Positions 58,762 to 63,986 of a DNA stretch of 64,000 bases are shown here, piece by piece. The translations under genes were made by a program, and so were the position numbers. The stretch is from Aeromicrobium sp. Root344 (GTDB lineage Bacteria; Actinomycetota; Actinomycetes; Propionibacteriales; Nocardioidaceae). Where the stretch lies: contig NZ_LMDH01000001.1 in NCBI RefSeq assembly GCF_001425755.1, positions 2,597,672 to 2,661,671 on the forward strand, written 5' to 3'. Position 1 is the stretch's first letter. Each line of letters opens with the position of its first letter. The notes below the pieces were generated by a model. That model made no database searches. It was not told the DNA's origin and worked only from the letters and a program-made list of their open reading frames with translations.

Positions 58762-59235
58762 GTGGCCAAGGAAACCGGGCGCAAGCTCGTTGCGCAGAAC
58801 AAGAAGGCGCGCCACGACTTCCACATCGAAGACACGTTTGAGGCCGGACTGGTCCTCACCGGCACCGAGGTGAAGTCGTTGCGTGCAGGTCGCGCATCCC
58901 TCGTCGACGGATTCGGTGAGATCGAGCGCGGCGAGGCGTGGCTGCTGCACGTCCACATCCCGGAGTACACCCAGGGCACGTGGACCAACCACGAGACCCG
59001 CCGGCGCCGCAAGATGCTGCTCAACCGCCAGGAGATCGACCGGATCGAGCGGCGTACGTCCGAGAAGGGCCTGACGATCGTCCCGCTCTCGCTCTACTTC
59101 AAGGACGGCCGCGCCAAGGTCGAGATCGCGCTCGCCAAGGGCAAGAAGACGTACGACAAGCGGCATGCGATCGCCGAGCGCGATGCGACCCGCGAGGCAG
59201 AACGCGACCTCGGACGCCGGCTCAAGGGCATGTAG
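58762..59235 (+). CDS. smpB: SsrA-binding protein SmpB
   Basis: 157 residues. Features of SmpB are present: [55 protein letters not shown], and the basic C-terminal tail [20 protein letters not shown]. It binds the tRNA-like domain of tmRNA and delivers it to stalled ribosomes. The partner tmRNA gene is 2.4 kb downstream. Start is a GTG with GGAGG immediately upstream. Confidence 0.96.
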
Positions 59236-61602: not shown

Positions 61603-61968
61603 GGGGCTGATCGGTTTCGACTAAGGTCGTTCGATTCAGGTGAAGCGGGTAGAGGATCCAGGGTTATCTCTTAAACGATCTCTGGAAACCAACAAGTGCC
61701 GATTCAAAGCGCACTGACTTCGCCCTCGCTGCTTAAGCGATAGGTGAAGGGCTGGCCCGGGGGCGTTCCCGCTCCGGATCGCCAGTCTCATTTAGGGGAC
61801 TTGCTGATCACACGGCGTCGCAGCGTGTGATCGGGACTTTTCTGCGACTGGGCCTGTCGGCGACGCGTTCGTCCGAGCGTCGGGGCCGAAAAAAGCGATA
61901 GACGAACTGCACCCGGAGAAGCCCTGACTCAGCGCCATAGGACCGGGGTTCGATTCCCCGCAGCTCCA
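61603..61968 (+). ncRNA. ssrA: transfer-messenger RNA (tmRNA)
   Basis: 366 nt. The 5' end GGGGCTGA and the 3' end CAGCTCC+A form the acceptor stem (7 bp), and the T-arm reads GGGGTTCGATTCCCCG at about 61944-61959. The tag ORF starts GCC at 61698 and ends TAA at 61734-61736: ADSKRTDFALAA, with the degradation signal ALAA. The tRNA-like domain, tag region and GC-rich pseudoknot stems are all in the expected order. The 3' CCA is not encoded (CGA follows the discriminator). It acts with SmpB to rescue stalled ribosomes. Confidence 0.95.
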
Positions 61969-61970
61969 CG

Positions 61971-62027
61971 AATGAGAAGTGCCCCCTGCCGACCCCGTTC
62001 TTGGGTCGGCAGGGGGCACTTCTCATT
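61971..62027. terminator. perfect 25-bp inverted repeat after tmRNA
   Basis: Arms 61971-61995 and 62003-62027 are perfect 25-bp complements with a 7-nt loop (CGTTCTT), starting 3 nt beyond the mature tmRNA end. It is the probable tmRNA terminator, again without a T-tract. Confidence 0.85.
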
Positions 62028-62035
62028 CATGAACC

Positions 62036-62181
62036 CAGCAGAGTGAATCGAGTGGGCCCCTGACACGCGGCGCCTCAGTGCGGCGAAGCCGCCAGTCCAG
62101 CGTCGCCGGACAAGGGATCCCGGCAGCTCGCTCCTCGTGAATAGGATCCCGGCAGCTCGTGAAAGCAGCGGAGTGAATCGA
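62036..62181. repeat. short direct repeats between tmRNA and the anti-sigma gene
   Basis: GAGTGAATCGAG occurs at about 62040-62052 and 62170-62182, and GGATCCCGGCAGCTCG at 62115-62130 and 62144-62159. The repeats lie in a 165-nt gap with no gene. They could mark a past insertion at the tmRNA 3' end or convergent terminator material; nothing else coding is seen. Confidence 0.5.
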
Positions 62182-62192
62182 GAGCGGTGCTT

Positions 62193-62861
62193 CTACAGCT
62201 CCGTCTCGGTCAACGGCTCGGGCGACCCCGCGACCCGGATCTCGACACGGGCGATCGAGCCCTTCGGCACGGCGCTCGAGGTCGACAAGGACGTCGCCTT
62301 GGGGCTCGTCGCGACCCACGACGCCGCGATCGTCTCGCGGCCGGACGTGTCGATGACGACGAGCTCGTACACGCGCTTGGCGCTGTAGCCGCTGGTGGCG
62401 AGGTAGTGGCAGTTCCAGTCGAGCCGCGTGCCCCATGACTTCTTCTCGACCCGCAGGCTGGCGGTGATGATGCCCGGCTGCACCTCGCTCATCGCGGCGA
62501 ACTGGCCAGACGGTGCGTCATCCGCCGACCCCACGGCGTACCCGGCGACGCCGAGGCCCAGGGCCGCAGCGACTCCCGCACCAGCGATCGCGAGGCGTAC
62601 GCGACGCCGGCGACGCACGGCCGCCGTGGCCAGCCGGGTCACGAGGCCGTCGGACTCAGGCACCTCGACCGGCTCGAGCAGTGCGATCGCCTCGTCCTTG
62701 CCCAGAGTCGCGAGGATGCCGGGCATGCCGGCGAGCTCGGCGACAGCGGCCGAGCAGGACGTGCACGTGGCCAGGTGCTCCTCGTACGCTCGTCGGTCGT
62801 CGGGCCCGAGCTGGCCGAGGACGTACGCGGCGTCCCAGTCGTGGAACGGATCGTCGTTCAT
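62193..62861 (-). CDS. anti-sigma factor with zinc ZAS motif
   Basis: 222 residues. The N-terminal zinc anti-sigma motif is His29-x3-Cys33-x2-Cys36 (EEHLATCTSC). One membrane helix (about 100-120) separates it from an extracellular C-terminal domain of about 100 residues. It would hold the ECF sigma factor inactive until a signal from outside, or redox change at the zinc site, releases it. The ATG overlaps the sigma stop (ATGA), so the pair is co-translated. Similar to RslA/RskA types in Mycobacterium. Confidence 0.88.
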   Translation of the reverse strand: MNDDPFHDWDAAYVLGQLGPDDRRAYEEHLATCTSCSAAVAELAGMPGILATLGKDEAIALLEPVEVPESDGLVTRLATAAVRRRRRVRLAIAGAGVAAALGLGVAGYAVGSADDAPSGQFAAMSEVQPGIITASLRVEKKSWGTRLDWNCHYLATSGYSAKRVYELVVIDTSGRETIAASWVATSPKATSLSTSSAVPKGSIARVEIRVAGSPEPLTETEL

Positions 62862-63364
62862 CGCGTGACACCTCTTTCCTGCATCGCGAGCCTGAGGGCA
62901 CGGAGTGCGTAGTGCATGCGTGAGCGGACCGTCCCTTCGGGAATGCCCTCCTCGCGCGCGACCTCGGCGGCGGACCGGCCGAGGTAGTAGGCGTTGACGA
63001 CCGTCTGACGGTGCTCGGCGGACAGCGACCTGAGGGCGTCGGCCACCAGCCAGCGGTCGAGTGTGGCGTCGGTGCCGTCGCCGCGCAACGTCTCGGGCAG
63101 TCGCTCGCTCGTCACCTCGTGCAGATGGCGGGCGCTGCGCCGGTCGTCGATGACCAGGTTGCGGGCGACGGTGAACAGCCAGGCGCGCGATGCTGCATCG
63201 CCCTGCTCGAGGATGGCTGGGCGTCTCCACGCGCGGAACAGCGCCTCCTGCACCACGTCCTGGGCCAACGCCGGGTCGTACGTCAGCCGGGTGACGTAGC
63301 GCAGGAGGGCAGGCGCGTGCGCATCGTGCAGTGCACGCAACAGCTCGTCCTGGTCCTCGGGCAT
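62858..63364 (-). CDS. ECF-type RNA polymerase sigma factor
   Basis: 168 residues. Region 2 has LLRYVTRLTYDPALAQDVVQ, EALFRAWRRPAIL and AWLFTVARNLVIDDRR; region 4 has LSAEHRQTVVNAYYLGRSAA, EVAREEGIPEGTVRSRMHYA and LRALRLAM. The group is SigL/SigK-like. The ATG at 63364 has GGAGGA 4-5 nt upstream and lies just after an ECF promoter at 63383-63407; a start at 63409 would lie before that promoter. It is autoregulated by that promoter and controlled by the coupled anti-sigma factor. Confidence 0.88.
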   Translation of the reverse strand: MPEDQDELLRALHDAHAPALLRYVTRLTYDPALAQDVVQEALFRAWRRPAILEQGDAASRAWLFTVARNLVIDDRRSARHLHEVTSERLPETLRGDGTDATLDRWLVADALRSLSAEHRQTVVNAYYLGRSAAEVAREEGIPEGTVRSRMHYALRALRLAMQERGVTR

Positions 63365-63382
63365 CGGTCCTCCAGCCCCTAC

Positions 63383-63407
63383 AACGGGAAGCGCGGCCAT
63401 TTCGTTC
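63383..63407 (-). promoter_or_regulatory. ECF sigma promoter of the sigma/anti-sigma operon
   Basis: On the minus strand GAAC (63407-63404), a 17-nt spacer and CGTT (63386-63383), extended as TGAACG and CCGTT. It lies 19 nt before the sigma start codon. It matches the ECF GAAC-N16/17-CGTY type and the promoter on the other strand. Confidence 0.55.
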
Positions 63408-63423
63408 ACCTTCTCCGTTCATT

Positions 63424-63448
63424 GAACGCCTCAGGCGTCCATCTCGTC
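63424..63448 (+). promoter_or_regulatory. ECF sigma promoter of the lipoprotein gene
   Basis: GAAC (63424-63427), a 17-nt spacer and CGTC (63445-63448), with the same TGAACG and CGTY context as the promoter on the minus strand. It precedes the lipoprotein start at 63501 by 52 nt. Confidence 0.55.
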
Positions 63449-63500
63449 CTCACAACAGGGGCGTGTCCGCGCCCCGCGAGATCGAGAACAGGTGATCGCC

Positions 63501-63986
63501 ATGAACAGCAGGCTCACACTGGCCGTGGCAGGCGGTTCGCTCGCCCTGCTCAGCCTGACGGCATGCGGAGGCTCCGACTCGGCCGGCGCGGTGCCGCCGA
63601 AGGGCTCGGTCATCGGTACGTCCGACAGCTCGCTCGGCACGATCGTCGTCGACGGCAAGGGCATGACCGCGTACGTGTTCGACAAGGACTCGCCGGGCTC
63701 AGGCAAGAGCGCGTGCACGGGGGAGTGCGTCGAGGAGTGGCCCGCGATCACGTCCTCGTCCGACCAGCCCAAGGTCGACGGGGTGACCGGCAAGGTCGGC
63801 ACGATCACGGGCAACGGTGGAGCCAAGCAGGTCACGCTCGACGGCAGGCCCTTGTACACGTACCACGACGACGGTGAGCCCGGCGACACCGAGGGCCAGG
63901 GCGCGGAGGGAGGCACGTGGTGGGTCGTGTCGCCCGCCGGGAAGAAGGTCACCGAGACGTCCGGCACCGGCGGCGGGGGCTACTGA
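63501..63986 (+). CDS. secreted-repeat lipoprotein (PF03640-like)
   Basis: 161 residues. A lipoprotein signal has the lipobox LSLTAC (Cys22). Two related repeats follow: AYVFDKDSPGSGKSACTGEC and LYTYHDDGEPGDTEGQGAEG, each with the Y-x4-D pattern of PF03640 (COG4315), ending in a Gly-rich tail. The Cys pair in the first repeat may bind haem or a metal, but this is unproven. The ATG at 63501 follows AGGTGAT. An ECF promoter upstream suggests control by the adjacent sigma factor. Confidence 0.85.
   Translation: MNSRLTLAVAGGSLALLSLTACGGSDSAGAVPPKGSVIGTSDSSLGTIVVDGKGMTAYVFDKDSPGSGKSACTGECVEEWPAITSSSDQPKVDGVTGKVGTITGNGGAKQVTLDGRPLYTYHDDGEPGDTEGQGAEGGTWWVVSPAGKKVTETSGTGGGGY

Follow-up and report, generated by a model that had tools for sequence, protein, structure and literature searches.

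Two genes in the window (the 64,000-nt stretch of Aeromicrobium sp. Root344 DNA that we analysed) diverge from a short intergenic region, one for an ECF sigma factor and one for a secreted-repeat lipoprotein. The locus raises the question of whether this sigma factor reads the promoters of both genes. A preliminary description had proposed an autoregulated switch that also controls the lipoprotein, and the proposal is supported, at the level of sequence, by intact promoters in four of four genomes, a preference for a 17-nt gap, nine of nine divergent gene pairs, seven of eight non-adjacent lipoprotein genes and co-variation of a promoter base with sigma residue 147. We put at roughly 88% the probability that the locus is a SigL/RslA-type autoregulated switch with both sites as its promoters and an exoplasmic electron-transfer output that includes the lipoprotein. 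SigL/RslA autoregulation is already known; the regulon is the new part.

The sigma factor, the anti-sigma factor and the lipoprotein

The sigma factor has the Pfam domains Sigma70_r2 and Sigma70_r4 (regions 2 and 4), and it scored 208.6 bits against NCBIfam PRK09645 (cut-off 202) when scanned from a longer start at 63409. Its top PDB sequence match was M. tuberculosis SigL (6dv9_F, E=1e-48), and the next non-SigL protein followed at E=4.6e-11. The anti-sigma gene lies directly downstream, and its first 4 nt are shared with the end of the sigma gene (Table 1). Its product matched zf-HC2 of Pfam (E=2e-6), had RslA as its top PDB sequence match (3hug_B, E=4.5e-15) and contains a single hydrophobic segment, as judged by eye from the translation.

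The most probable start of the sigma gene is the ATG at 63364, which follows a GGAGG at 63373-63369, rather than the in-frame GTG at 63409 of the open reading frame list. The GTG overlaps the minus-strand -35, and in G021 an indel shifts the upstream NTG out of frame. The minus-strand promoter had been described as lying before the sigma gene, and it does so once the start is set at the ATG; the promoter then precedes the gene, and the leader is predicted to be very short, about 8-10 nt.

In a tree of sigma factors, the window clade (support 100/99) grouped with sigmas of Microbacteriaceae, with L099 and with two Mycolicibacterium sequences, and the remaining sigmas from its own family fell separately; the enclosing forks had support of 97/76 and 99/73, under the usual mark. 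This placement, together with the distribution of the sigma over 4 of 49 genomes of the genus, suggests that it may have been acquired by transfer between families. A plasmid search returned 47 records, every one below 60% identity.

The lipoprotein matched PF03640 (Lipoprotein_15) with two repeats at E=6e-27 and 93.3 bits, against a gathering score of 24.4. A lipobox, LTAC, was found by eye, the ATG start is conserved across four genomes, and Cys72-x3-Cys76 was invariant in an alignment of 22 sequences. The CxxxC is compatible with a redox role, which we infer for the lipoprotein, and proves nothing. The NCBIfam model SCO0930_lipo (NF040526) gave 114.9 bits, below its cut-off of 275, with the match confined to the C-terminal part of the model (positions 195-310 of 311). 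Comparison with PDB sequences produced two matches, both weak (E=0.26 and E=0.61). The AlphaFold2 model of the lipoprotein had a mean pLDDT of 81.1, and Foldseek found no PDB match to it at E<=0.001 (best 2.3), so the predicted fold gives no functional hint.

Table 1. Coordinates of the features of the sigma/lipoprotein locus and of the remote site.
Feature	Position	Strand	Basis or context
Minus-strand promoter site TGAACGAAATGGCCGCGCTTCCCGTTGTA	GAAC 63407-63404, 17 nt, CGTT 63386-63383	-	upstream of ECF sigma gene
Plus-strand promoter site TGAACGCCTCAGGCGTCCATCTCGTCCTC	GAAC 63424-63427, 17 nt, CGTC 63445-63448	+	upstream of PF03640 lipoprotein gene
-35 TGAAC of sigma promoter, then G (63403)	63404..63408	-	sequence and genus conservation
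-10 CGTT of sigma promoter, conserved CGTTGTAG	63383..63386	-	sequence and genus conservation
-35 TGAAC of lipoprotein promoter, then G (63428)	63423..63427	+	sequence and genus conservation
-10 CGTC of lipoprotein promoter, conserved TCTCGTCCTCAC	63445..63448	+	sequence and genus conservation
Ribosome-binding site GGAGG of sigma gene	63369..63373	-	sequence; conserved in genus comparison
ECF sigma factor gene, SigL-like, 168 aa, ATG at 63364	62858..63364	-	Pfam, NCBIfam, PDB sequence matches
Zinc-finger anti-sigma factor, RslA-like, 222 aa, probably membrane-anchored	62193..62861	-	zf-HC2, PDB match
HxxxCxxC (ZAS) motif HLATCTSC of anti-sigma factor	62754..62777	-	read from translation
PF03640 secreted-repeat lipoprotein gene, 161 aa from conserved ATG	63501..63986	+	Pfam
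Remote site, FMN operon (L149)	G000:C1:1713880		CGTT end 49 nt upstream of lipoprotein gene

A matched pair of predicted promoters in the intergenic region

The preliminary description had placed GAAC -35 elements and 17-nt spacers on both strands, and its coordinates proved exact to the base. A single match to GAAC-N17-CGTY is of little weight since the pattern occurs 13 times in the window, against a mean of 6.5 in shuffled sequence (13 was reached in none of 100 shuffles). The longer pattern TGAACG-N16-CGTY picked out just these two sites in the window (shuffle mean 0.43; two or more in 4 of 100 shuffles), and across the 3.87-Mb genome it had 36 copies, compared to nine for the reversed pattern. 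Such single-sequence statistics make a modest case for the pair and, as far as sequence evidence goes, the comparison across genomes is decisive.

ECF promoters have about 33 nt between GAAC and +1. By this rule, transcripts are predicted to start near 63374 on the minus strand, which gives the short leader mentioned above, and near 63457 on the plus strand, with a leader of about 44 nt; we infer these start sites, and the dependence of both promoters on the sigma factor, from the DNA. The -10 elements of the pair (CGTTGT and CGTCCT) do not fit the M. tuberculosis SigL consensus (CG)TGN(C/A), having no G at '-11', and we therefore use the name 'SigL-type' rather than 'SigL'. The -10 was CGTT in 27 of 55 related sigma promoters, CGTG in 21, CGTA in six and CGTC in one.

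The region also holds a third TGAACG, on the minus strand at 63421-63416, that forms a 13-bp palindrome, CGTTCATTGAACG (63416-63428), and a second palindrome, ACGCCTCAGGCGT (63426-63438), overlaps the plus-strand -35. In an alignment of four genomes, this middle TGAACG copy was not conserved in G035 and G024 and neither palindrome was kept.

Conservation within the genus

We compared 49 genomes of the genus, including that of the window. A close sigma (92-100% identity) was present in four of them (G000, G021, G035 and G024), a close lipoprotein (75-100% identity) in the same four, and both promoters were intact with a gap of 17 in each. The longest difference-free runs of the four-way alignment were the sigma gene's ribosome-binding site (GTCCTCCAG), the -10 and -35 of the minus-strand promoter (CTACAACG and TCGTTCA in plus-strand reading) and the plus-strand -35 and -10 (CATTGAACGC and TCTCGTCCTCAC); the spacers varied. 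Three more genomes (G013, G022 and G043) encode a SigL homologue at 51-55% identity and gave no PF03640 match.

A fifth PF03640 gene of the genus was seen in G046 (L066 1459-3251). Its product has 41% identity. The divergent neighbour of the gene is another ECF sigma gene, with a gene for an HxxxCxxC-motif protein (no Pfam family) behind it, and the locus is without this promoter pair.

The 17-nt gap in relatives of the sigma factor

From a contig scan for relatives of the sigma, 80 of 562 confirmed relatives were taken as named loci. GAAC-N17-CGT was found on the gene strand in the 120 nt that precede the sigma gene at 44 of these 80 listed loci, and each of the other gaps between 8 and 26 at 0 to 5 of them; base shuffles gave gap 17 at 0.4 loci on average and never at more than 3 in 500. 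On the opposite strand, gap 17 occurred at 15 of the 80. A PF03640 gene is immediately divergent at nine of the 80 listed loci (Rhodoglobus L067; Cellulomonas L078, L079, L083, L087, L089, L100 and L111; the uncultured actinobacterium L099), and all nine carry the site on both strands, with any other gap reaching at most one of nine on the gene strand and two of nine on the opposite strand. At 36 listed loci the 120-nt stretch held no site; Curtobacterium, Lentzea, Kribbella and Promicromonosporaceae are among them. Kribbella-type relatives from a separate set (L005-L020) showed no comparable upstream site and have a different upstream context. In the same 120 nt, read on the opposite strand (L067-L146), GAAC-N23-CGT appeared at nine of the 80 listed loci, a count second only to that of gap 17 and an excess that perhaps comes from related sequences.

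Where a PF03640 gene is near the sigma but not adjacent to it, seven of eight loci (all except L095) have a separate GAAC-N17-CGT for the lipoprotein gene, no more than 250 nt away. The divergent slot itself is filled by other genes elsewhere. A Rieske lipoprotein is divergent under GAAC-N17-CGT at L030, L080, L082, L088 and L098 (two of the five proteins called by Pfam, the others by a tblastn match to those), and a DUF2231-like membrane protein at L076 and L123. The L123 protein matched DUF2231 at 23.6 bits (cut-off 26.4), and the L076 protein aligns with that of L123, although Pfam gave no match for it. In Lacisediminihabitans (L072), FMN/ApbE-type genes similar to those of the remote operon described below are divergent from the sigma. 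Within 3 kb on either side of the sigma, the 80 listed loci contained PF03640 at 16, Rieske at eight, DUF2231-like at four, FMN/ApbE at one and none of these at 59; the counts cover relatives of the window's sigma only. The Rieske, DUF2231-like and FMN-binding occupants suggest that the divergent position is an output slot.

We also searched from the lipoprotein side, in 396 genomes of the phylum, of which 101 had a match, and took the best 30 loci (29 besides that of the window). Gap 17 was found at 12 of the best 29 other loci, gap 18 at five and any other gap between 10 and 24 at no more than two; three of the 12 sites are more than 100 nt upstream or have no preceding T, and two of the 29 loci had less than 70 nt of upstream sequence. 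A homologue of the window's sigma (30-56% identity, and perhaps not SigL-type in every case) was encoded in the fetched flanks of 14 of these best 29 loci. The gap-17 site was present at 8 of the 14, compared to 4 of the 15 without such a homologue.

Co-variation of the base after GAAC with sigma residue 147

The co-variation set consisted of 55 of 110 loci, those whose site lies no more than 130 nt from the sigma. Of all alignment columns, sigma residue 147, in the region-4.2 motif GTV(K/R)SR, showed the strongest association with the base that follows GAAC. G followed GAAC in 8/8 promoters of sigmas with R147 and in 4/47 of those with K147 (Fisher p=4e-7, with kinship ignored); L102, one of the four K147 cases with G, has two sites, of which the upstream one was scored. 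The promoters of immediately divergent lipoprotein genes gave the same pairing, with G after GAAC in four of four genomes of the window clade (R147) and C in nine of nine others (K147). Four more sigmas with R147 (L094, L122, L127 and L145) had no site in the 130-nt stretch. For the base after CGT ('-11'), no clear position emerged in the region-2 specificity loop of the sigma. The co-variation at residue 147 may reflect one or two descent events, and it offers a concrete hypothesis for how ECF region 4.2 reads the base after GAAC.

Genome-wide copies and a remote FMN operon

The preliminary description had suggested a genome-wide scan for the element. Run with TGAACG-N16-CGTY, the scan placed one copy before an FMN operon. 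Of the 34 sites other than the window's pair (inspected as 33 stretches), 27 overlap open frames that are 80 or more codons long and have a third-position G+C of at least 0.85. The seven sites outside such coding-like frames are L147, L149 (the FMN operon), L150, L151, L152, L153 and L155. L147 and L151 have the least coding-like surroundings of the seven, and further targets may exist among the remaining sites, these two for example. The variant TGAACC has 30 sites in the same genome.

One of the 27, L148 (G000:C1:1037900-1038900), carries a palindromic TGAACGCCGTTCACC that is identical in all four genomes, and the TGAACG-N16-CGTY pattern there overlaps the palindrome TGAACGCCGTTCA. Its neighbours are presumably a BioY-like and a TetR-like gene, one on each side, and the palindrome looks like a TetR-type operator.

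The remote operon begins with a lipoprotein that resembles FMN_bind (PF04205, 21.3 bits, slightly below the cut-off of 22). Next come ApbE (E=2e-37) and a reductase fusion of 519 aa, in which a membrane part precedes FAD- and NAD-binding reductase domains (Pfam). We read the membrane part as NqrB/RnfD-like; Pfam gave no NqrB/RnfD match on the fusion. The site recurs, with a different spacer, in G021 and G035, and it is also present in G024. The FMN-binding lipoprotein is encoded in 46 of the 49 genus genomes, and at the 30 loci examined (L190-L219) TGAAC-N17-CGT preceded the operon in 4/4 sigma-bearing genomes, in 1/3 genomes with a distant SigL (G022) and in 0/23 others. Farther upstream, GGAAC-N17-CGTT was found in all four sigma genomes and in 20/23 without a SigL homologue, and TTGAACSTTCA, which contains the -35, in 4/4 sigma genomes and in 10/23 without a SigL homologue. 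The presence of these two elements in genomes without SigL makes the remote site less certain, and suggests that this operon may be served by another ECF sigma and may carry a conserved operator.

The four genus genomes are sister species, and a test in other sigL-bearing genomes is stronger. We picked 29 genomes of the 80 listed loci for variety; 16 have the first gene of the operon, with ApbE and the reductase gene adjoining it in 16/16. TGAAC-N17-CGT was present within 250 nt of the operon in nine of these 16 genomes, and TGAAC at 14 other gaps amounted to one locus in total. In seven of the nine, GAAC and CGT are each followed by the same base at the FMN promoter as at the sigL promoter of that genome (L068, L069, L070 and L073 of the Herbiconiux group, GAACG/CGTT; L131 and L141 of Microbacterium, GAACC/CGTG; L074, GAACC/CGTT), and at L126 and L113 the two promoters differ. 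The site was missing in seven of the 16, namely the five Cellulomonas (all those tested), L123 and Rhodoglobus L067, the last being among the nearest relatives of the window's sigma. The FMN operon is thus not a universal target.

A proposed switch and its alternatives

In the switch that we propose, the RslA-like zinc-finger anti-sigma factor would keep the SigL-like sigma inactive at the membrane until a signal, probably redox or envelope stress, frees it. The freed sigma, with RNA polymerase, would act at the minus-strand promoter to yield more sigma and anti-sigma, a positive feedback with a built-in reset, and at the plus-strand promoter to express the PF03640 lipoprotein. It probably also drives the unlinked operon for the FMN-binding lipoprotein, ApbE and the NqrB/RnfD-like reductase, and the output would be a set of exoplasmic electron-transfer proteins.

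The two promoters might instead belong to another ECF sigma of overlapping specificity, with the SigL-like protein serving other targets. ECF promoters look alike in general, and the finding of GGAAC-N17-CGTT before the FMN operon in 20/23 genus genomes without a SigL homologue means that another ECF sigma probably reads similar elements. However, at both the sigma and the lipoprotein promoters the base that follows GAAC changes together with residue 147 of the sigma next to it, and the remote FMN promoter agrees with the genome's own sigL promoter in seven of nine other genomes, which makes a foreign sigma unlikely. That TGAACG is instead the half-site of a DNA-binding regulator, its three copies and the palindrome CGTTCATTGAACG forming an operator, is a still weaker contender that we hold to be very improbable: the palindrome, the second one (ACGCCTCAGGCGT) over the plus-strand -35 and the overlap of the same pattern with TGAACGCCGTTCA at L148 would all suit an operator, but the preferred 17-nt gap to CGT is unexpected for one, and the -35/-10 pairs are conserved in the four genomes whereas the palindromes are not. 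We rejected the operator reading of the TGAACG copies on this lack of conservation. Chance matching in GC-rich DNA is hardly credible. The pattern has 36 copies in the genome and its single-sequence expectation is not negligible, but conservation in four of four genomes and the peak at gap 17 over 80 of 562 relatives contradict this explanation.

A further alternative concerns the lipoprotein and is compatible with the promoter reading. The main role of the lipoprotein could be to sense for, or modulate, the anti-sigma factor, as a feedback input rather than a surface redox effector. PF03640 genes often adjoin the sigma/anti-sigma pair, and the one in G046 is likewise divergent from an ECF sigma that is followed by an HxxxCxxC protein. 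The filling of the divergent slot by Rieske, DUF2231-like or FMN-binding proteins at other loci speaks against a sensor, as do the own promoter sites of seven of eight non-adjacent lipoprotein genes, and we consider the sensor role possible but doubtful.

If the SigL/RslA-type switch is the correct reading, its promoter signature is strict enough for the regulon to be read across families. The signature ties PF03640, a family of unknown function, and an exoplasmic flavin operon to a sigma whose M. tuberculosis relative has a solved structure and a redox-sensitive inhibitor. PF03640 would gain a testable role from this link, which also suggests a purpose for SigL-type sigmas outside mycobacteria. 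A broader proposal is that in many Actinomycetota the SigL-type switches, each gated by a redox-sensitive RslA-type inhibitor, serve specifically to regulate outer-face electron transfer (the flavinylated NQR/RNF-like operon, Rieske and DUF2231-like proteins), with PF03640 as an unrecognised redox partner; we see the odds for and against it as even. A literature search, which covered few subscription journals, found no report that connects a SigL-type sigma with PF03640 or with ApbE operons.

Comparison with known systems

SigL-RslA of M. tuberculosis is the closest pair with solved structures to the sigma and anti-sigma factors of the window. According to the available portions of the sources, RslA blocks the binding of SigL to promoter and polymerase and has a redox-sensitive zinc motif (PMC2877774), and release of the sigma by oxidation or by proteolysis of the anti-sigma factor has been described (PMC2877774, PMC10449499). 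The M. tuberculosis sigL promoter is itself SigL-dependent and its targets relate to the envelope or to modification of secreted proteins, as given in the accessible text of PMC2877774 and PMC6372665. The -10 of M. tuberculosis SigL prefers CG before T, with G at '-11' preferred most strongly, in the part of PMC6372665 at hand. The window system resembles this one, as far as those texts describe it, in its ZAS inhibitor with a probable membrane-spanning part and in a -10 with CG before T. It differs in having T or C rather than G at '-11', by that same partial account a variant rather than a strict copy, and in having R147 with a -35 of TGAACG where M. tuberculosis SigL has K in region 4.2. 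The available portions of PMC2877774 and PMC6372665 do not mention a PF03640 lipoprotein or an FMN operon as targets of M. tuberculosis SigL.

The SigU regulon of Streptomyces coelicolor includes SCO0930, according to the accessible part of PMC6295645. It is a precedent for an ECF sigma that controls a related lipoprotein, with the match to SCO0930_lipo far below its cut-off; the sigma is a different one and the SCO0930 family model is longer, at 311 positions. NQR/RNF-like flavinylation clusters were reported from 127 genomes, mostly of Actinobacteria and the candidate phyla radiation, and presumably pass electrons from NAD(P)H to an FMN domain on the exoplasmic side (PMC8238504, available portions). 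The remote operon is like the clusters described there in having an FMN-binding domain, ApbE and an NqrB/RnfD-like membrane part with a NAD-binding domain; unlike those clusters, for which the word 'sigma' does not occur in the main text of PMC8238504, it bears SigL-type promoter sites.

The tmRNA region beside the anti-sigma gene

The far side of the anti-sigma gene carries a tmRNA gene (61603-61969, plus strand) with the tag ADSKRTDFALAA; the gene at 58762-59235, upstream of it, we take to be smpB. Between the tmRNA and the 3' end of the anti-sigma gene, at 61967-62031, lies a 29-nt inverted repeat (97% complementary, 7-nt loop) that is probably a two-way terminator. Direct repeats of GGATCCCGGCAGCTCG are found near the inverted repeat, at 62115 and 62144.
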